The translations under genes and the position numbers were made by a program. This document shows, piece by piece, positions 1,518 to 15,155 of a stretch of 64,000 nt of DNA. Every line of letters begins with the position of its first letter. The first letter of the stretch is position 1. The notes beneath the pieces were generated by a model that saw only the letters and a program-made list of their open reading frames with translations, made no database searches and was not told the DNA's origin. This DNA comes from Trametopsis cervina (Eukaryota > Basidiomycota > Agaricomycetes > Polyporales > Irpicaceae), in NCBI GenBank assembly GCA_022385755.1, contig MU278349.1, forward strand, positions 1,426,001 to 1,490,000. The letters are read 5' to 3'.

Positions 1518-2997
1518 CTACCACAGCCCGAGCGCCGTAGGTACCCCCAACCCAACACTCAACACATAATCAACACCCGCGCCAGCCCACACCGCAACAC
1601 CAGCCAATCCGCACCGTCTAAACGCGTCCCAGCAGCTTGCGCGACTATCAAAGTCGACAGCGCGCAATATACGGGCGAGCACGACGCCCGCGAGGCCGAC
1701 GCCGAGGAAGTACGGCAGCCCGTGCGCGTTCGCGTACCCTGCGAGCGCCCAGAGCGACACGGCGGACACGGAGAAGGCGGTGAGGACGCTGCGCGTGTGT
1801 GTGCCGAAGAGGAGGGCGGTGGAGCGTACCCCGACTTTGACGTCGTCGGATTTGTCCTGCGTAGCGTTAGCGGGAGGCGCGAGGCATGTGAGGAAGGTGC
1901 AGGCGCAGGAGGAGGCGTACCTGGTGCGCGTAGATAGTGTCGTACACCAGCGTCCAGCAGACGCCGCCAGCATAGAGCGGCAGAGCGACGGCCCAGTTGA
2001 CGGAGCCTGCGACTGCCGACCAGCCGAGCATGGCTCCCCAGTTGAACGCGAGACCTGCATAAGCGCGCGAGGAGTTATAAAAGTACTGCGCCCTGCAGAG
2101 ACACACAACGTACCAAGGACAGACTGAGGCCAGTACGTGAACCGCTTCATGAACGGGTATGCGGCGACAACAGGGAGGGACGCCGCTCCGAGGAAGATGC
2201 TGCACTTCCACCAGTAAGCCAGACACAACAACAGAAATCAGGATACAACGCGTGCGCACCTATACCAGTTCAACTGAGTGAGCACCGCCAGCCCTCCGCT
2301 CAACTGCAGCCCCAAGAACCAGAACGCCTCCTGGCGCGTAATATCGCCCCGCGCAATCGGCCGGTCCTTCGTCCTGTCTTCCGTGCCAGTCCTAGCTCAG
2401 CACCACACCACATACTACCCGCCCGCCCACGACATATATAACGGTGCACTCACCGACGGCCTTGTCAAAGTCCCTGTCCGCCATATCGTTTATCGTGCAG
2501 CCCGCAGAGCGCATAATAAGTGCGCCAGTGCCGAACAGCCCGAGGCACGCCAGCGGCGTTGCCAACGGCGCGCCGATAGCGTACGCTGCCATCGTTATTG
2601 ACCAGGCTATATGCACCACACAGCACGTTCAGCACGGGCGCGTGTAAGGAGCTCGGGGAAAAGGAGACGTACCGCATGGATAGAACAGGAGCAGTGTCCC
2701 GATAGGTTTGTCTATGCGCGTTAGGTAGAGGTAGGGACGTAGCCTCGGAGGGGCCTTTTCGATCCATGAAGGAGCCGGGACGGGTGCGAGAGGAGGTGTG
2801 TTGGATGAGGAGGGAGTCGCGACGTCGTTCGTCTGTGTGAACCGCGCAGCCGTCCGCGTGAAATGCCGAGTCTCAAACCGCGGTATTGACGTATTTCGGA
2901 GGACAGCACGGTTCAGCCCATGGCCGATTCGTATAGAGGTTGTCACTCGCGATGAGAGCCAGGGCGCGTGCGAGTGCGCATGAAGGAGGGTGTGCAT
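1518..2997 (-). CDS. COQ2: 4-hydroxybenzoate polyprenyltransferase COQ2 (UbiA family)
   Basis: COQ2 attaches the polyprenyl tail to 4-hydroxybenzoate in the mitochondrial inner membrane, the committed prenylation step of ubiquinone synthesis. The spliced protein starts at 2997 ([13 protein letters not shown]), with an Arg/Ser-rich leader that fits mitochondrial import. The family entry motif [20 protein letters not shown] follows. The first Asp-rich prenyl-diphosphate/Mg site is NDMADRDFD and the second is [22 protein letters not shown] lies between them. Hydrophobic segments surround both sites, as expected for a polytopic UbiA enzyme. Several short introns interrupt it; one acceptor is GGAAG just before the DRTKDRP segment. 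The stop is at 1518-1520. Head-to-tail with RhoGDI, about 400 bp apart. Identification is secure; exact exon ends are less so. Confidence 0.93.
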
Positions 2998-3405
2998 GGT
3001 ACGAACCTCGTCGCCGTGAGCAGTAATTACGAATCCCCACCGCACGGCCGTGCCCGAGAAATTCGCGACTCAGCGGCACATTCGGGCGTCTAATCTAAAA
3101 CCGAAGCCTGGTCAGGGACGCACAAAGCGTGCCACCGGAAGGAAAGGCAAATCTCAGTCCGCCTCCCAGAGCTGCGAGGGATGCGGGAGACCCGATGATT
3201 CACACTCGATCATGATCGCGGCAGTAAAACATATTTTCCCTAGTTTATATTCCCATGAGATATCCAGTACATCAGCGCGACGCGGGAGGGGGAAGGCTGG
3301 TTGTTTGAAGGAGAGAGCGAGAAGGAACCGAATGCCAGAGAGCAGCGTAGTGCGATACAATTAGATAGAGAACCGACTCGGAGTCGCCGCGCACGCGCTG
3401 TGCGA
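2998..3405. other. intergenic, COQ2 promoter side
   Basis: This 408-bp spacer separates the RhoGDI stop from the COQ2 start, both genes being on the minus strand. It should hold the COQ2 promoter and the RhoGDI 3' end. I see no further gene or clear motif. Confidence 0.6.
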
Positions 3406-4429: not shown

Positions 4430-5037
4430 GGTCGGGGTCGTAAGAGTGCGAGAACAAGGTTGAAAGAACGAAGAACACGCTCACGACACGGCTGTGCGCG
4501 GGCTGGGTCACTGATCGATCTTCCCACGGGTGCTATCGCGTTTTCCCGTCGAGCCCGGTAACTGGGCGCCTTGCTTGACCTTGGGTACAGCCATCAACAG
4601 GCATACACTGCTCGTTTTTGCATCCGTCTTGCTGACCGGAGGACGAGCGTTGTGAGGGAAGATATAACCAACAACTCCAAGATATAATTTCGCCGACGAC
4701 AGCCAACACATACAATGCGGTCCTACGCGGCTAGCTACAGACAGTCATGAGTAATTCCGAGTCGACATATTTAAAAACTAGGTAGCAGATGCAAAGCGAT
4801 AACTCGAGCGCGACCACTGAGAGAACAGGGTCCTAGGGTAGGAGCGAAAGCGGATACAGATGGAGCAAGCAATACACAAAGATAGCAGTTACATAGCGGG
4901 ACGATATAAGGAGAGCCAACAGGGCGCACATCAGTGTGACACCCGGGGCTATTCACACTAATGGGATTTTTGGAAGTCCCCTAGCAGGGATCTAATTTTC
5001 AGTGATAAGGGGTGGATGCATCCGGTCTGCTGTCACG
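4430..5037. other. intergenic, no gene seen
   Basis: This 608-bp spacer lies between two minus-strand genes. A 60-67-codon minus-strand open frame at 4508-4715 has no recognisable features. It should hold the RhoGDI promoter. Confidence 0.55.
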
Positions 5038-6941
5038 TCAATAACCATTGTCACTGAAACTCAGACGCTGCGCAGACATACCGCCTTTAAACCAGCATTT
5101 GCCCTTGCTTAAATGGAAGCATCGTGCACCGCCCGGACAGACGTGGCCCTGCATACGCAGGAAGTGGGCCGTCACGATCAATGTATGCGGAAAACAGGTG
5201 TCTGACTCACCCAGCAGCATCTATCGCCGTGAGGACACTCGAGCCCTATTGGACAGATTGTCAGCGTGTTTTCCGGCCCATGGTTCCGAGTCGGATATGA
5301 AACACGAAACCCAGATAGAACATACCGTTTTTGAGATAATTACAGGGTGCCTTCTTTGCATTCTTTGCGAGTACATCGAGCTGCTCCGCGGTCAGGGCCC
5401 AGTCATGAGAATACTTGCAGCCAGGCTGAATGCACGTTCCATCAGATTTGTTAAGGTTTCAGCGTTGGAGCTGACTTACACCCTTCGAACACGACATGAG
5501 ATAATGTTCATTGCATGGTGGCGGAGATTCTGGCATGTACAGTTACGGTCACTCTAAGAGCAGGGATATACTCGGTAGCTCACGTTTATGCAACGGCTGG
5601 CGAACCGACGTGAATACGGAACGAGAGGGCATGAGGCACGTCAGAGCTCACCTTCGTGATATCGATCGGTCTACCGGTAGTCGCGACCCGTGGAGAACCA
5701 GCCAGGTGCGAGTACGTCTCTGACTGCGGACTGATGAGGCCCCCGTTCGTAGTGACAGAGGTGGAGGATACGGGCATAGGCAGGGGTCCAGGGAGAAGCA
5801 TTCCCGAACGCCTGGTAAGCATCGGCGAAAGGTCGGGAAGGAAGACCCCCTCGACTCGAATGGACGGCAAGGCAAGCTGGTGGAGCTCACCCGAGGGTTC
5901 CACAGACCCTTGGAGGAGGACCACCTTGCCGAGCAGTTCCTCCTGGTTGAGGGCATGCAGGGTGCTAGCGTACAGACTGCCGTGGCCACCTGCACACGAG
6001 GAAATTTTTAGCGGATGTTACACGGGGACAGGGATCAGCAAGAAAGTTTCACCTGCGAGGAAGACGCGCAGCGTTTGTGGGAAGCGCGTAAAGGTGTTGA
6101 GGTGCTCTGCGTGTGCATCATGTTCGTCAGATGGATTCCGAGATGTTCATCAGGAATTTGCTGCACTTGCCTTTTACCTTTGAATTGACCCCATCATTTG
6201 CTGTGCCGGCCTCAACGATCTGAAAGCGTGGCGATGCCTGGCTGAAGCCGCTCAAAAACCCATCGAACTGCTCTGCCGTGCAGAGCGAGTTGGCGAGCAG
6301 CGTGTCGAGGACGGCCCTCCTGTTGATGAATATCGTTATCCAGAACGAAAGCCGGCCGAAGACCTGGACATCTTCCTGAGAAAGGAACCCCGCGATCACC
6401 CTGGTCAGCTCCTGGGCTGCCTGCAGGCCCCCGGTCTGACCAAGAGTGAGGAGAGAGCGGTCGAAGATATTAACGTCGCCGTCGACGATGCAGATAATGA
6501 GAGGATGTTGGTTCTGGTGAAGGCAGTGAGTGGAACAGGGACGGGGAGATTTTGAGGCTACGACAGACCTGTATTGTCTCTAAGGAAGAAATTTGACGAT
6601 TCAGGGTAGAGACCTGCGCGTTATGCGCCTTCTTTGCGAGGTCGGCTGCATTGAGGACCTGTGCGTGTGCTTGCTTCCAGACTGATAATTCTGACTCTAG
6701 TTCTTCCACGCGTCCCTCTAAATCGCCGTTGCGCTTGACGGTTGCAGTAGACAGGTCTGAGACGAGAGTCAGCTGGTGCGCATTCGACGATGGTAAGATA
6801 GCACATACCGAGCAATCTAGTCAAAGCCTCATCCCTTTGCAAAAGCGAGAGAAAAAGATTCAGCAACTGCGCGCTATAGCCGCGGGCCACACGGACTGAC
6901 CACAACTGCTTGTTACCCTCCGTTGTCGACGGCAAGGCCAT
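5038..6941 (-). CDS. coiled-coil / NYN-like (DUF7923-type) / tandem CCCH zinc-finger protein, copy A
   Basis: Start at 6941 (MALPSTTEGNKQLW), stop at 5038-5040. Domains in order: a coiled coil (VEELESELSVWKQAHAQVL and following); a globular domain opening with IICIVDGDVNIFD, continuing through FGRLSFWITIFINR and ending around LRVFLAGGHGSLYASTL; a Pro/Ser-rich linker; then CCCH fingers. Finger 1 is DGTCIQPGCKYSHDW. Finger 2 is a perfect C-x8-C-x5-C-x3-H (CNYLKNGLECPHGDRCCWGH), followed by CPGGARCFHLSKGKCWFKGG. The globular domain matches my memory of the fungal DUF7923 family. I infer a NYN/PIN-like nuclease fold from the DGD strand and the later GGH turn, but the two downstream acidic positions seen in copy B are lost (NSKV, GGHGSLY). 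One intron uses a GC donor (6107-6170). Probably RNA-binding; function unknown. Confidence 0.82.
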
Positions 6942-9895
6942 GTGGCAGTATAAGGAGAGGGAAGAGGGGAAAGAGGGTAGGTGGTAAAAGGATGGAGGGG
7001 AAGGAATGTGCGAACTGTCATGGAGAAGTGGACATATATAACCGCCGTGTTATGATCCTTGGGAGAGCATTGGATGATCACAAATGGAACACGATGGCGG
7101 CTAGCAAGAACCTCGGAGCACTGCCCAACAGAGACAACCTGCTTATTTGGAGCCCAGCGACCATTTCTGTTCCACGCTCATTGTCGCCGCAGCGTGTCCA
7201 GCTCGAGGCCACAGGAGAGAAAACATTTCTTTCCCTCGGTCACGGTGGGACGAACATGAGCGCTTTAGCTGGGTATATTCCATCCTAATGCGGGTATGGT
7301 ATCTCGATCTCACAGTCGCCGGCATCAGTGCGCCACAACCTCCCGCGTTCATGCATCACAAAGACGCCGTGCACAGTGGCCCTGCGACTGCCTTTCCGAG
7401 TCTCGACGCTCGACCGCGTCTTATTGGCGGAAAGCTGACACAAAATTCATCCCCGCCAGGCCAGTACAGCCACAGAAATTTTACATACACATAGCACAGA
7501 CCATAGCACCCGAGACGATGCTCCGACGACGTTCGCGGACTAAAAACAATTATACTCCGCGTGGTGAGTGTCCGCCCTTGCGGTGTCTGAGATACTAAGA
7601 GATGCATCTGCATCGAGATACACCCAACATGATTCATCAAGTCAAAGTCCTACTTGGGATACGGAGCAGTTGTGTCACCGCAGCAATCCTACCGTCGGAG
7701 GTGTAATTGGGAGGGACAGTGTGACGGTTCTTCGCGAGCCCCACTTGTGGAACCAGGCAGCCAAGGGTCAGACCCGAGCACCAGACAAGACGTTCCAAGT
7801 CCAGCTGATGGTCCATGGGCACCCTTGCACATATTGATCAGCGAGCATAAATGACGACAACCAATGCTAATACGCTCACAGGTCGTGTTGGAAACCCATT
7901 AAGGTCTAGTACCCGTAATAGTGAGATACACAGCCGGACGCCTGACAGTGCGGTGCCCGTTGAATATGCAATCGCCGGTCCTCTGTAGCCAACAAATCGT
8001 GAACGAGGTCTCACAGGGAGGCGGTCCAAACGCACGTGTCTCTGCAGGGACTGACAAAGTTTGTTCCAGGCCACCGCTCATGGAAAGTTCCCTGCACCCA
8101 CCCACTTCTAGGGCACCGCTAGTCCGATGATATCCTGCCACGACAAGGCACACCCATGCGCATTTCCAAAGACCCTGTACAGGTAGCCGAGATGCCGTCA
8201 AAACAGATGTGGAGGGCTCGGTATTACTGTATAGTTATGTTTCCATCGTAGGCCATTGTCTGTGATAGGGGCAGCCGATGTTCGCATCCACTTTTTGTCT
8301 CGCGTGATCAGATGGAAAGTGCGGGCTTGATCGCTGCAGCGAACTGCCTTATTTTCCCCGTTGGAGCACGACCACTGGGGAGGGGTATGCCACTATAAGA
8401 CAAAGTTTTCCGACATCTTCGCGCGGTGAACCTCCGCAGCGATACAGAAGCCCTTCTTATCGCAAAACTCTACATGAAACAGTAAGTCCATATATCGCAA
8501 GCCGAACAAAGAAACACGCACTGAGGAACGTTTTGCGCCACCGGTGGGATTCCTGATCGCGTTATACCAATAAACGGTCATCGGGTGTTGCTGCGGTCAG
8601 CGAAGGCCAGGAGGATAGTAGGCTGTAGAAATCGACGCACCTCCGCCATCATATTATCAGACGCTTCCTTTCCATATGAACGACATGGGAGTCGGTCTGA
8701 CTCGCTGAAACATGAGATCTAGATGGACAAGATGTATTGGGCGACAGAAGATGTGATGCTAGGTCGCACGACCTTTGTCGGCGATACGTTTTTTGAATTC
8801 GAAAAATGAGCGATCTTCTATCTGTGAGGTAACCGAGTTTAATAGGTTCCAGGCGTGCAGATGACAGTCTGGGCCGTGGGTATGTGGCTGGGAAAATCCT
8901 GGGCTCTGGTAAAGAGGGTCACATCCGCCATTGTGGCTTGATGTGCACTCTTGAGAACAGTCTGTAGGCAGGTAAGCTCTATATGATAGCTTAGTGAGCC
9001 GTTTTCTTATTCGCTGCACAACCAGTCCATCACGTACCTTTGTCATCTGCATTTCCCCCTTCACGCTTCTAATTATACCACGATGTCCAAAGGATCTGCT
9101 GTAGAATGTCCTGTAACAACGGAAGAGAGGCGACGACTGAGCGAACAGAAAGGCCAAAATCCCTTTCGCATACCGCCCACTGTCGAGCTGAGGGGTGGCC
9201 ATCATCCTCAACAGTGCTGACACGTAATGACTGCCCAGGCACTTAGCAACAGACAGCTGGACGGTCTGGACACGGCGATGCCCAGATGACGCCGAGGGAC
9301 ATATATAGGAAGATTAAGAGAGCCTGACAGGTAAGAACTATCGCGCCCGTAGCTGTTCGGGTCGGGTTGCTAGTCGTTTATTCAGGAGCGTCGAGGTTGT
9401 TATCACCGTGAAGTCGTGGGATTGGCGTACTCTTTAGTGGGCGGTGGATATATGAGCGGGTGCATTCTCATTCGTGGATGTGATTCTAGACGGCGCAACA
9501 CACCAGGATATTATGACGATGCGGTGACATAGTCCAGGGAGGTATTAGGTCGGAGGCCAGAATTGTTTTCCCCCTGCGAGCGGCACGTTTCATACCATTT
9601 TCTTGCATCGTACACAGGTACGAATCGCCTGTCATTCTGTTCACCGCAAGATGGGCACAAGACTCAGAAGTTGGAAGTGGTGACGCAAGGTACGCGACGA
9701 CCCGCAGGTAGCGGATCAGCCTGGGCGGTCGGAGCGCCCACCGTGTTCCGTGATTGCATAATTCTGAACTCAACCCAAACAACGGAAACAGCAAGCGGTA
9801 CAAGAGTTCTTTTCTAGGGACGAAGGCCATGCCACAGGAGAGCAGCATTCACGCGTGTATCGATGATGTCCGTTTCCCAAAATCTTATCAAAACC
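6942..9895. other. 3-kb stretch without a supportable gene
   Basis: This region separates the two CCCH paralogues. Open frames of 60-154 codons occur on both strands (for example 8759-9223 minus), but none joins into a coherent spliced gene or shows a known motif. Short minus-strand patches near 7800-8000 (CPMDHQLDLERL) and 8400-8470 (FCDKKGFC) faintly recall finger segments of the neighbours. They could be remnants of a decayed third copy, but this is too weak to annotate. Confidence 0.4.
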
Positions 9896-11627
9896 TTATG
9901 TCTCGCCTACGGCTGAAGGCTCCTCGTAGTGACGATACAGACACGTGCCGTCTTCGTTCTTACACGGCCCATCTACGCAGCGCGCATCAGCACGGATGCT
10001 TTGTATATGTACACTATCGCGGGAATCAGACGTACCGTTGACTCGCCTGCAGGGGTACGTGCGCGCCATCGCTTTTATTTGTTCCATGTCCTCGTCAGTC
10101 AAGCCAACGTAGTCATGCGACCAGGGGCAGACCGCTCGGTTGCACGTTCCGTAGAGATAAAACTCAGAGCACACCTTTGGTCTCTCTGGGAAGGTTGATA
10201 AGCTGAGCCCAGCTGTGTTGTTAAAAATAGGACTTACGATGCTTTATAGACTGTGATATAAATAAATCAGACGTGAAGATCGGTATGATGACATGGGTAA
10301 CATACCTTCGACCGATCCAGCGTAAGAGGCTCACTTTCGCGTCTGCGTAAACTAGGTAAGTGGTCGTATGAGAGAAACTGCACGAGACGCTACTCACGAC
10401 GTTGTAGTAGAGAAAGCAGACCCAACTGGACTTGGGAGATCACCGCCAAGCCCCGACGCGAACGCTTTCCATGGCTGGAGCTGTTGCCTTGTCGCAAAGG
10501 GCTCGCGCCTAGACATCCTGCTATCCGCTTCCCTCTCCCTCTCAAAGTATTGGCCTCCCAGCTTCCTACGATTAAACACCGAGTCAAGCGGCTTGAGCTG
10601 CGGGAGGTTCAGGGCGGTATAGGCGAAGTCTATCGGATATGCAGGCATAAGGTACAGCATCTTCCTGGCGTCTTCGTGTTCGCGCATGAGCGTCTCGAGA
10701 AATGGGATGTAGCCGGTGTCGTGACAGCCTGTGAGATAGTGAGCGATTTATGCCATCAAATGAGTCTGTAAATGTGTACCTCCGAAGATGATATGCGTAT
10801 ACTTCCGATTTGTGACTGCCCGTCTGATCTCCTCTGGCCCATTGTGAGCAAGTCGATATGATAACGCCACACGTATTGTGTGTCTTACCTCGAACTTTAT
10901 TGTCTACAACCTCCTTCCCCCTCCCAACATCCACAACATCGCACCCGGGAACATACTTGCAGAATCCCTGCAAGAACTCGTCCGTCTTCTCAGACAGGTC
11001 CTCGCGTCTTTCCTTGTACTTCAGCAAGTTCCACAACCCAGCTTTATTCAGGAACACCTTGATGGACAGCTCCGGTCTAGGCTTTCTGTCCCACATGTCT
11101 AGACCTCTGTAGATTGACTCTTGCAGGCGGGCCAAACTTTCTTTGCCTCCTTCTACGCCACGAGCGAACTGGGTCAGACTGAATGAGTAGCCGTCGCCGT
11201 CGATGACACAGAATATGCTCTCTGGGCGCGAAGGAGCGGGTTTGTCGATATCCGTGGTGCTGGCCCCCGAGTCTAGGATGTTCTGCATAGCTTCCTCGAG
11301 CTTGCTTAAGCGGTCTGCAAAACTAGTGACAGCAGCCTCTAGGTTTTGGATGTTCCGCCCGCTTCGAAGCGACGCGAGTTGGAGCACTCCGTACACCAGG
11401 GACTTGCGATAGTCTGCACTGGCCTTCTGTTCTTTGCTCAGACCGCCGAACTCCTCCCGCCTAATTATGTCAGTAATTAAGGCATCTACGCGTCGCAATA
11501 AGCAGGGTCTCTGAAGCACGCAAATAGTATGCGCTAATGACGTACCGGGTAGCGTGCTTGATCGTTCTTTCCTGTCGACTAAAGTGGGTTTCAGTCCGTA
11601 TGTTCATTGAGAGAGCACTTACTTCAT
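9896..11627 (-). CDS. coiled-coil / NYN-like (DUF7923-type) / tandem CCCH zinc-finger protein, copy B
   Basis: A paralogue of the gene at 5038-6941. A consistent 5' model is ATG at 11627 with five coding bases, a 26-nt exon, then the exon encoding DALITDIIRREEFGGLSKEQ. A coiled coil (SFADRLSKLEEAMQNIL) precedes the globular domain: FCVIDGDGYSF, IKVFLNKAGLWNLL, VVDVGRGKEVVDNKV and IIFGGCHDTGYIPFLE. These four blocks occur in the order and spacing of NYN/PIN ribonuclease motifs (strand-1 Asp, central Asp, late G-x-x-D turn); the nuclease assignment is my inference. At the C-terminus are C-x8-C-x4-C-x3-H (CSEFYLYGTCNRAVCPWSH) and, after splicing, C-x7-C-x6-C-x3-H (CRRVNDGPCKNEDGTCLYRH). It lacks the Cys-rich tail of copy A. 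A 13-nt exon seems to link the domains. Confidence 0.82.
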
Positions 11628-12720
11628 CCTAGTTTGGTTTGGCGTGCTGTAAATTAGAGACAGATGAGGGGAGATGCGAAGGGTGGAGTTAGTATGTGTA
11701 GCTCGGCAGAGTCAGCATTTTATATGCTCGCAAGTCGCCTGTCTTATCCATAGGATGCGCCACCTCTTCGTGTCCTGGATCTCCATTCTCTATCTAAGGC
11801 TGTCCGAGATATTCATGCTTGGACCCCGATATGAGCCATGACAACACGAGAGGCGTATCGATGCTGGTGGTGGCAGCTATGGCAGTCAAATACGTCTCCC
11901 AAGTGATACCGCAAAATACGGACACGCCTCTACGGCAACCGCTGCTAAAACGATATATAACCGCATCTGCGTCCATTCCCATCACATGCAAGGGTCTTAT
12001 GGATAAAATGGAGGCTTTGAGGCCTCAAGATACGCGTTAGCCTGCTACGCTTAGGCTCGCACTCGCCACCTACGACAATAGTGTCACCATCAGCTGCAGA
12101 GTAAGCAGCTCCGTCCTGTGTACTCACCTGACACAATACTCCGAAATGTAGCAAGTACCTACGTACTCCCCTCGAAGATATCCTTTCACAAGTGGTGTGA
12201 TGTGCCGGCGGCATGTGCATGTCGAAGCACAAGAGGCGCATTAGACGCCAGCCTCGTGGCGTTAGCGACCTCCGAAAGCAGTCGGGCCGAAAGGCCGGCA
12301 TGTGCAAGTCACGTTGACCAACGTGGGAATTTGCAATGCGCACTAGCGTCCAGGGATGGAATTTGCGAATTGCCTTCACCAATGTTATCGCCAACCCTGT
12401 GCGCAAGGACGGATCGCAAAAAAACGAAATCGCACTGCTTCGGAACAATAGCAGGCCCTTCCACTAAACGCTCTGATTTCTCGGAAAACGCATCCCAAGG
12501 GCGTAAGTTTCGCTTTTCTGCTCCATGTGACCCCGCTGCATCATTCAGCGTGGAGTCCGTTACGGAACTCTTCAGCCGTGGGTGCCGCCAAGGGTAGAGT
12601 TTGTGCTTCTTCGTGTGACGCAAGGGGAACATATATAGCTGAAGATGAGAGGATGTGAGATACTCGTCTTGTTCAGACTTGCCCGCTCGCATTACTCTCA
12701 CCTTAACGACTACTGTAACG
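11628..12720. other. intergenic, divergent spacer
   Basis: This 1.1-kb spacer lies between the minus-strand CCCH gene B and the plus-strand transporter. Open frames up to 167 codons on both strands look like chance frames without domains. It contains the transporter promoter (TATA-like site at 12632). Confidence 0.55.
12632..12638 (+). promoter_or_regulatory. TATA-like box of the MFS transporter
   Basis: The sequence TATATAG lies 83 bp upstream of the transporter ATG, at a plausible distance for a fungal core promoter. No other support. Confidence 0.4.
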
Positions 12721-15155
12721 ATGGACACGAATTCGCCTGCCCGCAGAGGCTCAAGATCACCCACAATTGACGAGGGTAAATCGGAGAAGGCACGATATAC
12801 CGAGCACGTTGATGCTATCTCCGAGAGTGACTTGCAAGCTGTAGCTCCGCGATTGCATGGACGCACACTCACCGCTGCACTGGCCTTCGTTGCTGGGACA
12901 GGATTCACGCTCTTCGGGTACGCTGTAATCCATTTGGCGGAACAGAAGGAAGTTGATAACGATCCGATGTACAGCTATGATCAAGGAGTCATGTCCGCTC
13001 TATTGAGCGCGCCGCAGGTCAGTACGCTTCCAGTAATACCAATACTGTCCTGTGCTCACTCTCGGGACCTGCGTATACAGTTCGAAAAGGTTTTCCCCAC
13101 AACGGTCATTGGTTCGAATCACGCGACGCTGCAAAGCTTTGTCGTTGCCATATACGTGAGTGATCACCTGGTGAAGCGAGTCGGGCTAAACGTTCAACTC
13201 GGTTTGGCAGGAAATCGGATGTCTCGTTGGCGCGTTGTCGAATCTGTGGCTCGGCGACCGCATCGGTCGGCGCAAGACCATCGTGCTTGGCGGAAGCATC
13301 ATGATTGTGGGAGCGATACTGCAGGCAACGTCTTTCAGCTATGCGCAGCTCGTAGTGGCCCGTATTGTGACAGGTTTGGGGAACGGTTTGAACGTGAGTG
13401 CTAGTACTGTTGACTCGGGGCCTATGACAGCTCTCATACATAATTTAGACTTCGACAGTTCCTTCGTACCATGCGGAGTGCTCACCCGCGTCCACTCGTG
13501 GGAGCTTCATCATGTTAGAAGGCAGTCTCATCACGTTCGGCATCATGGTCTCGTGAGTCTTGAACTTCCTTCCAAGAGATATGTTTTGACGTGTTTCACT
13601 CAGATATGTGCGTGAAATGGCCAGCTTTAGCGCGCATTCCAGCTGACGGAAAGTACTTGTGCTAGTGGATAGATTTCGCATTGTAGGTAACACGGCCATC
13701 ACGCATAAGGATTTCGGCACTCACATGCACAAGATTTTGGGCAAAAGGATCCTCGGCACAATGGCGAGTGCCGATAGCACTGCAGATCGTCTTCGCAATA
13801 ATCATGATCGTCGGCATTTTCTTCGTAAGTCTTGTACTTGTTTGACACTGGATACTGGAGGGGATCTGACATTGCCCACACTCAGCTCCCAGAATCACCT
13901 AGATGGTATGTTTGACGCCATTTCTTGATCGGAACATCCGTCAATCTGTTTGCACATAAGGTTAGCAAACCGGGGTCGTAACATTGAAGCACTAGCAGTG
14001 ATCTGCGCCCTAGAAGACAAGCCTCATACAGATCCTCACGTCCAACAAACCTTCCTAGGTATCAAAGAAGCCGTGGCCATAGAGTCAAAGAGCAACGGGC
14101 GTTCTCCGTTACGCGATATCTTCACCGGCGGACCAACCCAGAACTTCAGGCGTGCGACCTTGGGTGTGGTTATACAGTGTTTCCAGCAGATCACCGGTAT
14201 CAACCTCATCACATAGTAAGTCTTCCTTCTCCCTTCTGGACGGTTCATCGTGCTGACTCACCTTCTCAGCTATGCCGTGCGTACACCAGGCATTCTCCTG
14301 TGTCACTCTCTTGTTGACTTCATGAATAGACCCTCTTGTTCGAGCGTCTTGGCCTCGGCGACGTCGATTCTCGTATCATTGCCGCATGTAACGGCACGGA
14401 ATACTTCCTCGCCAGTCTCGTTGCGATCTTCCTAATCGACCGTGCCGGCCGACGGAAGCTCATGCTGTTCGGCTCGGTGGGCCAGACAATTACGATGATA
14501 CTCCTTGCCATCCTTGGGAGCATCGACAACTCGGCCACGCAGATCGTGTCGTCGGTCCTGTTATTCGTGTTTAATTCGTTCTTTGCGGTAGGATGGTTGG
14601 GCATGACTTGGCTCTACGTAAGACACAATGTCTTTGGTGTTGTGAGGCTTCATAATGCTGACAATATCCGATAGCCCGCTGAAATCGTCGGTCTGCGCAT
14701 CCGAGCTCCTGCAAACGCTTTCTCGACTGCGAGTAACTGGATCTTCAATTTCATGGTTGTGATGGTCACCGGACCATCCTTCAATAACATCAGCTGGCGC
14801 ACTTATATTGGTATGCACTCACAGTCCAAGGTCATGTATCTTAATTGATGTTCCTGTCCGCAGTGTTCGCCGCGCTCAACGCATTTATAATACCCATTGT
14901 ATATCTGTTCTTCCCTGAAACAGCAGGGCGCTCACTCGAAGGTGACCCTGAACACTTGAACCGTCGAAGCAGAGATAAGCTGACGTCGACTGCGCAGATA
15001 TGGACGTTGTATTTGCCCTTGCCCACAGGGAAGGCGTATCACCTGTACAGGTATCCTTACGCAAAGATGTGCCTCCAGCCGGCACCCCGGAAGCAGACGA
15101 GATTCTCGGGCTGAGAGATACTGCTAGCGAGCGAGAGAAGTCTGTTCGCAATTAA
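12721..15155 (+). CDS. MFS sugar/hexose-type transporter, 15 exons
   Basis: A 12-helix proton-coupled plasma-membrane transporter of the Sugar_tr family. Spliced model: 12721-12917, 12975-13017, 13081-13155, 13211-13393, 13449-13552, 13604-13607, 13666-13682, 13734-13824, 13886-13905, 13961-14215, 14270-14276, 14330-14617, 14675-14810, 14864-14941, 14998-15155. These total 1656 nt, exactly 552 codons. All family signatures appear only after splicing: FTLFGYDQGVMSALL, GDRIGRRKT, VPSYHAECSPASTRG, SYWIDFAL, FLPESPRWL, QQITGINLITYYATLL, DRAGRRKL, PAEIVGLRIRA, FFPETAGRSLEDMDVVF. The 4-nt and 7-nt microexons restore the tyrosines of SYW and YYA. The N-terminus is cytosolic and charged. The substrate is unknown; hexose or a related polyol/acid is likely. 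An upstream in-frame ATG at 12655 is less likely as the start. Confidence 0.93.

Follow-up and report, generated by a model that had tools for sequence, protein, structure and literature searches.

A predicted divergent NYN-like domain joined to CCCH zinc fingers in two neighbouring Trametopsis cervina genes: a probable RNA-binding pseudo-nuclease and a possible RNase

In a 64,000-nucleotide stretch of the Trametopsis cervina genome (contig MU278349.1, positions 1,426,001 to 1,490,000; hereafter the window), two neighbouring genes, which we call copy A and copy B, each encode a domain of the Pfam family DUF7923 together with CCCH zinc fingers, and the question that this pair raises is whether its products cut RNA or bind it without cutting. 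A preliminary description had read both as Regnase-like proteins that cleave mRNA with an NYN/PIN-type nuclease domain. The explanation that we favour, with moderate confidence, is a divergent NYN domain combined with CCCH fingers; in this view copy A is a pseudo-NYN protein that binds RNA, and copy B could be an endonuclease. The genes and domains concerned are as follows, in window coordinates.

4992..6941, reverse strand: copy A gene, 12 exons, 429 amino acids, its splice equal to the NCBI protein letter for letter
5841..6513, reverse strand: copy A DUF7923/NYN-fold domain, about residues 86-267
9896..11627, reverse strand: copy B gene, 9 exons, our own model, 435 or 451 amino acids
10568..11231, reverse strand: copy B DUF7923/NYN-fold domain, residues 20-205 of the NCBI protein P0001

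The domain family is established, as the preliminary description had proposed: Pfam DUF7923 (PF25540; curated cut-off 24.5 bits) matched copy A at 162.4 bits (E 1.3e-47) and copy B at 122.1 bits (E 3.1e-35). The first Pfam scan, the NCBIfam scan and the homolog search used a 442-amino-acid model of copy A; the Pfam scan was redone with the corrected 429-amino-acid protein, again at E 1.3e-47. NCBIfam gave one sub-threshold match per protein (E about 0.09). Copy A had 215 homologs at E <= 0.01, with 120 of them listed.

The predicted DUF7923 domain is a parallel alpha/beta/alpha sheet that superimposes on solved NYN domains. With the models of both copies, MARF1 and VPA0982 lead the first row of any other kind by 4.5 to 7.4 Z units, which bears out the NYN/PIN fold proposed earlier, and two of the three best matches in a viral Foldseek search are named LabA-like/DUF88 and NYN. 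Foldseek against the PDB placed a Kluyveromyces RNA-decay protein, which may be a PIN protein, at ranks 15 and 39 for copy B. Several results weigh against the assignment. Both structure models were built from the same 120 sequences; the best viral match superimposes poorly (root-mean-square deviation 13.1); Foldseek against the PDB gave neither copy a match at E <= 0.001 nor an NYN structure within the first 50 rows; hhalign of DUF7923 against five NYN sequences gave a local P of 0.12 and, when forced to be global, 9 columns at P 0.66; Pfam listed neither NYN (PF01936) nor PIN for A or B at E <= 10; and a Pfam scan of 30 relatives held no NYN among the 25 listed families of 42. PDB sequence searches found nothing significant, the best of five matches in one reaching E 0.45 and another returning none. 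A generic Rossmann-like resemblance, with some different function for DUF7923, would fit the absence of a significant sequence link and the Foldseek result against the PDB, but we consider it highly improbable given the lead of MARF1 and VPA0982 in both models, the names of the viral matches and the fact that copy B's three aspartates fall on NYN positions. The predicted fold thus points to DUF7923 being an unrecognised, divergent NYN (PIN-like) domain.

Whether such a domain could cut RNA depends on its acidic residues. Catalysis by MARF1 uses D358, D426, D427 and D452 (excerpt of PMC6294520). The residues D13/D118/D143 of a bacterial NYN protein correspond to MARF1 D358/D426/D452 and to VPA0982 D14/D92/D115, and the bacterial D13A mutant is dead (excerpt of PMC11346440); in mouse MARF1 four aspartates are required, including D215, the D395 equivalent by numbering (excerpt of PMC10226599). 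The corresponding residues of copy B are these.

11193..11201, reverse strand: D30-G-D32, closing strand 1, with D30 at the place of MARF1 D358
10902..10904, reverse strand: D129, in the first turn of the helix past strand 3; corresponds to MARF1 D426 in a local hhalign alignment that is not significant alone
10718..10720, reverse strand: D155, in GGCHDTGY past strand 4; corresponds to MARF1 D452 by hhalign

Copy B carries, in order, FCVIDGDG, IKVFLNK, VVDVGRGKEVVDNKV and IIFGGCHDTGY, exactly as first described, the last arising only once the intron 10779-10729 is removed, where P0001 is spliced identically. The first NYN aspartate falls on copy B D30 in all three structure alignments (6fdl, 5yaa and 2qip; read via the aligned ranges, with the first ten residues assumed gapless) and, assuming the same gapless start, on copy A D96 in two of the three, being off by one residue in 2qip. 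The spacing of D129 and D155 is 26, equal to that of MARF1 D426 and D452. By alignment, copy B has three core acids (D30/D129/D155), with the fourth and fifth MARF1 acids (D395, D427) replaced, whereas copy A has D96/N195/G221, keeping one of the three, and no acid in the loop past strand 4. Compared with the MARF1 NYN domain (human 6fdl, mouse 5yaa), DUF7923 differs in both copies: copy B carries Asn in place of D395 and D427, and copy A has lost more of the core acids.

With its metal site broken, copy A would bind RNA without cutting it, most likely so because one of three core aspartates is left; judged by these residues, from which we infer its inactivity, it is probably an RNA-binding pseudo-NYN protein. 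Copy B may still cut RNA via a metal ion, in the manner of MARF1, because its three core aspartates are kept, though Asn stands at two further acidic positions of MARF1, and we regard it as a possible RNase. The mRNA-cleaving reading of the preliminary description thus keeps its footing in copy B's three aspartates and loses it in copy A. Weighing against our own division are, for copy B, N130 at MARF1 D427 (by hhalign) and N81, most likely at D395 (placed by secondary-structure order only), and, for the inactivity of copy A, its retained D96, D98 and D192.

Behind the domain lie the Cys/His modules, by which both proteins would grip RNA. Their conservation was read from an alignment of 120 of 122 listed proteins, mostly of the copy-A type, from which the two longest, P0069 and P0119, had been removed; the rows of P0001 and P0122 are without the finger region, yet count among the 120.

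6587..6926, reverse strand: copy A long N-terminal helix, coiled-coil-like, residues 6-79, a single helix in the predicted structure
5405..5515, reverse strand: copy A CCCH finger 1, C340-x7-C348-x5-C354-x3-H358, ligands in 117-119 of 120 rows
5143..5344, reverse strand: copy A CCCH finger 2, C379-x8-C388-x5-C394-x3-H398, ligands in 117-119 of 120 rows
5016..5139, reverse strand: third module of copy A, with the Cys/His residues C400, C406, H408, C414 and H422, each in 115-118 of 120 rows, within a PF25543 match at 370-423
10115..10171, reverse strand: copy B CCCH finger 1, C-x8-C-x4-C-x3-H, zf-CCCH_12 at 4.2e-5, under the curated cut-off
9929..10051, reverse strand: copy B CCCH finger 2, C-x7-C-x6-C-x3-H, divergent and intron-split, with no profile match listed

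The earlier account of coiled coil, domain and paired fingers fits copy A, whose predicted helix would probably join two chains (block means of the model's predicted local distance difference test score are 59 at residues 1-10 and between 74 and 96 beyond), although it overlooked the third module. Copy B's paired fingers are encoded in the DNA by way of a micro-exon and a 25-nucleotide putative intron but are absent from P0001; its gene ends are predictions, and that the fingers are unannotated in the public protein counts against our reading. Finger 2 of copy A has weak PF25543 and PF00642 matches under the cut-off. The tandem CCCH profiles PF25543 and PF25542 stayed below their curated cut-offs in copy A (20.6 bits against 24 and 15.9 against 27), as did PF25542 in copy B (23.6 bits against 27), while the Cys/His spacing itself is present in both. 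Copy A shares the tandem C-x7/8-C-x5-C-x3-H spacing with tristetraprolin-type proteins, which are not known to carry a nuclease-fold domain.

Two further comparisons concern the domain layout. MARF1 carries RNA recognition motif and LOTUS domains (excerpt of PMC6294520). CCCH fingers are not known from it. Regnase-1/ZC3H12A (MCPIP1) is an RNA-decay protein with a PIN-type domain and a single CCCH finger (excerpt of PMC5031192). The order of nuclease-fold domain and then CCCH is shared by copy A and, by our own gene model only, by copy B, but there are two fingers here instead of one, and copy A has in addition its third Cys/His module and its long helix at the N-terminus. RNase_Zc3h12a (PF11977) was listed for neither protein, and a genome scan for it gave 0 candidates, although the genome was read exon by exon and an intron-split gene could be missed; the Regnase family was matched in the PDB sequence search at the zinc finger only and not significantly (ZC3H12C E 0.59, ZC3H12A E 2.8), and the absence of Regnase structures among the first 50 fold rows listed is uninformative either way. 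Activity of both copies as Regnase-like mRNA endonucleases would agree with the fold, the domain order, copy B's aspartate motifs and the D96, D98 and D192 of copy A, but it is very unlikely, since copy A has no acid at two of the three core positions and none in the strand-4 loop, and PF11977 is matched by neither protein nor, in the exon-by-exon scan, by the genome. We rejected a pair of active Regnases on copy A's residues and the missing PF11977 match; the Regnase-like layout holds, and neither membership of that family nor activity of both copies does.

In the same genome, canonical NYN (PF01936) has exon matches at four places, C2:1731721, C2:1734098, C17:386032 and C17:401884. Two of them neighbour each other about 240 kb off the window, and WDYG and GDGDF motifs occur in three of the four. 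These genes belong to the same fold class as DUF7923 and, where three of the four were read, have their acidic motifs in the same order, but they score as PF01936 and carry WDYG/GDGDF, whereas DUF7923 does neither.

Across the 120 rows, position 30 is D in 61, N in 53 and H in 6. A strict D-D-D triad occurs in 19 rows (copy B, P0122 and 17 others); since position 155 borders on gaps, the strict counts come out too low, and relaxed counts were used as well. Permitting E at the second and third positions gives 30 rows, an acid anywhere in the loop 34, and in addition an acid at 126 in place of 129 gives 56. On a quick tree of 122 rows, in 120 of which the three columns had been masked, the state of the first aspartate appears to have changed essentially once, because it needs two changes, or one without six long rows. 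Each of the remaining core positions requires 13 changes (12 if the long rows are left out), and the triad requires 14 (13 if they are left out). Mycena, Laccaria, Termitomyces, Lyophyllum and Amanita are among the members of the clade that lacks the first aspartate. The strand-4 loop carries an acid in 111 of 120 rows and position 126 or 129 does so in 117, and among the 59 rows lacking the first aspartate, 48 retain acids both at 129 and in the loop; the first two counts speak against the inactivity that we propose for copy A. K131 is found in 119 rows, position 120 is D in 110 and E in 10, and position 81 is Asn in 106. Because K131 and the acid at 120 stay fixed, the pocket may have kept some binding role.

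Such erosion would also suit a family that is catalytically dead throughout, its pseudo-NYN domain binding RNA or partners as a decay-factor scaffold and copy B being just less eroded. The loss of the first aspartate in nearly half of the rows, the rarity of the strict triad, near-invariant zinc ligands, the two Asn of copy B and the prevalence of Asn at 81 all argue for this, whereas the intact triads of copy B, P0122 and the 17 others, and loop and 126/129 acids more frequent than expected of a fully abandoned site, argue against it, and we judge it rather unlikely. Under the reading that we prefer, in which copy A binds and copy B may cut, the alignment suggests that in most copy-A-type proteins the RNA-binding end is constrained and the cutting site is not. 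One history of this NYN-CCCH family is possible, and we offer it tentatively: one lineage became a pseudo-RNase through a first Asp to Asn/His change that many genera have retained, whereas copy B and other divergent paralogs still cut, the dead copy possibly guarding the live one's targets.

Named homologs of copy A recognised among the matches listed belong to Agaricomycetes, many of them mushroom-forming or wood-rotting; others are unnamed metagenome proteins, and no recognisable ascomycete name occurs among those matches. As a full-length query copy B matched itself only, and its domain region added one protein, Hermanssonia centrifuga P0122 (38% identity, E 1.1e-21), with which it groups in a tree of 122 domains (support 98). 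Its terminal branch of 1.95 is very long and the placement unsure, a divergence that counts against our reading; P0001 and five others form the long branches of the tree. Judged by sequence, A and B adjoin but are no recent duplication, because they are 25% identical, the branch of B is long and uncertain, and P0122 is slightly nearer the copy-A-type P0018 (40%) than copy B (34%). From seven exon matches we read four DUF7923 genes in the genome, namely the pair in the window and a tandem pair at C1:1090396-1093238. The latter two are 82% alike in the domain, each showing by eye a pair of CCCH fingers plus a third Cys/His module, and with Q in one gene and E in the other at the second core position. 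DUF7923/PF25540 is named in no paper of the literature searched, outside which subscription papers mostly lie, and among the papers listed there for fungal NYN together with CCCH none was relevant.

The gene structure of copy A is established: the corrected 12-exon splice equals the Trametopsis cervina protein BDW22DRAFT_1351768 (P0002, 429 amino acids) in every letter. It runs to 4992, past the start of 5038 given in the preliminary description. A first model of 442 amino acids was dropped for errors in the first exon, the micro-exon and the 3' end. Intron 6170-6107 has a GC donor (gcaagt..cag), consistent with the public protein.

6941-6901, 6834-6809, 6756-6569, 6513-6171, 6106-6053, 5989-5652, reverse strand: copy A exons 1-6
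5596-5584, 5529-5480, 5425-5326, 5245-5211, 5148-5082, 5026-4992, reverse strand: copy A exons 7-12
5584..5596, reverse strand: copy A 13-nucleotide micro-exon, in the splice equal to P0002, with a counterpart in the copy B model
11627-11623, 11578-11546, 11460-10889 or 11508-10889, 10833-10780, 10728-10398, reverse strand: copy B exons 1-5
10351-10306, 10250-10238, 10212-10036, 9972-9896, reverse strand: copy B exons 6-9
10213..10250, reverse strand: copy B 13-nucleotide micro-exon (10250-10238) and 25-nucleotide putative intron (10237-10213), both required for the fingers

The public counterpart of copy B, BDW22DRAFT_1351774 (P0001, 287 amino acids, Trametopsis cervina), is 100% identical to our model across the domain (model residues 92-275) and differs at both gene ends. 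It starts at an internal Met, is without the first part and the two fingers, differs in two residues at one junction past the domain, and ends by read-through into the intron at 10305. The putative intron 10237-10213, with a gtaagt donor and a cacag acceptor, is unusually short, and if it is not removed the frame hits a stop ahead of the fingers. The micro-exon is supported by one of 13 nucleotides in the matching position of copy A and, as seen by eye and not proven, by look-alike 13-nucleotide stretches between possible splice sites in both chromosome-1 copies. A 54-nucleotide exon lies at the same domain position in both window copies (A 6106-6053, B 10833-10780).

Around the pair, the open reading frames 8759-9313 and 9486-9848, which lie next to the two genes or between them, gave no Pfam match at E <= 0.1. 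About 12720-14216 on the forward strand encodes one or more exons of a sugar transporter (major facilitator superfamily; Sugar_tr 1.2e-13), and 2629-3069 on the reverse strand holds an open reading frame piece, a 39-amino-acid part of which is without a Pfam match and which, by a sequence motif, presumably resembles a COQ2-type polyprenyltransferase.

Few CCCH decay factors of filamentous fungi are understood. The link to NYN gives a testable function to DUF7923, a family of unknown function in the Pfam version used, and the residue pattern predicts which of its members can and cannot cut RNA. If true, the family would be a natural experiment in which an mRNA-cleaving factor turned into an mRNA-binding one, with a live and a dead paralog directly testable in one genome.
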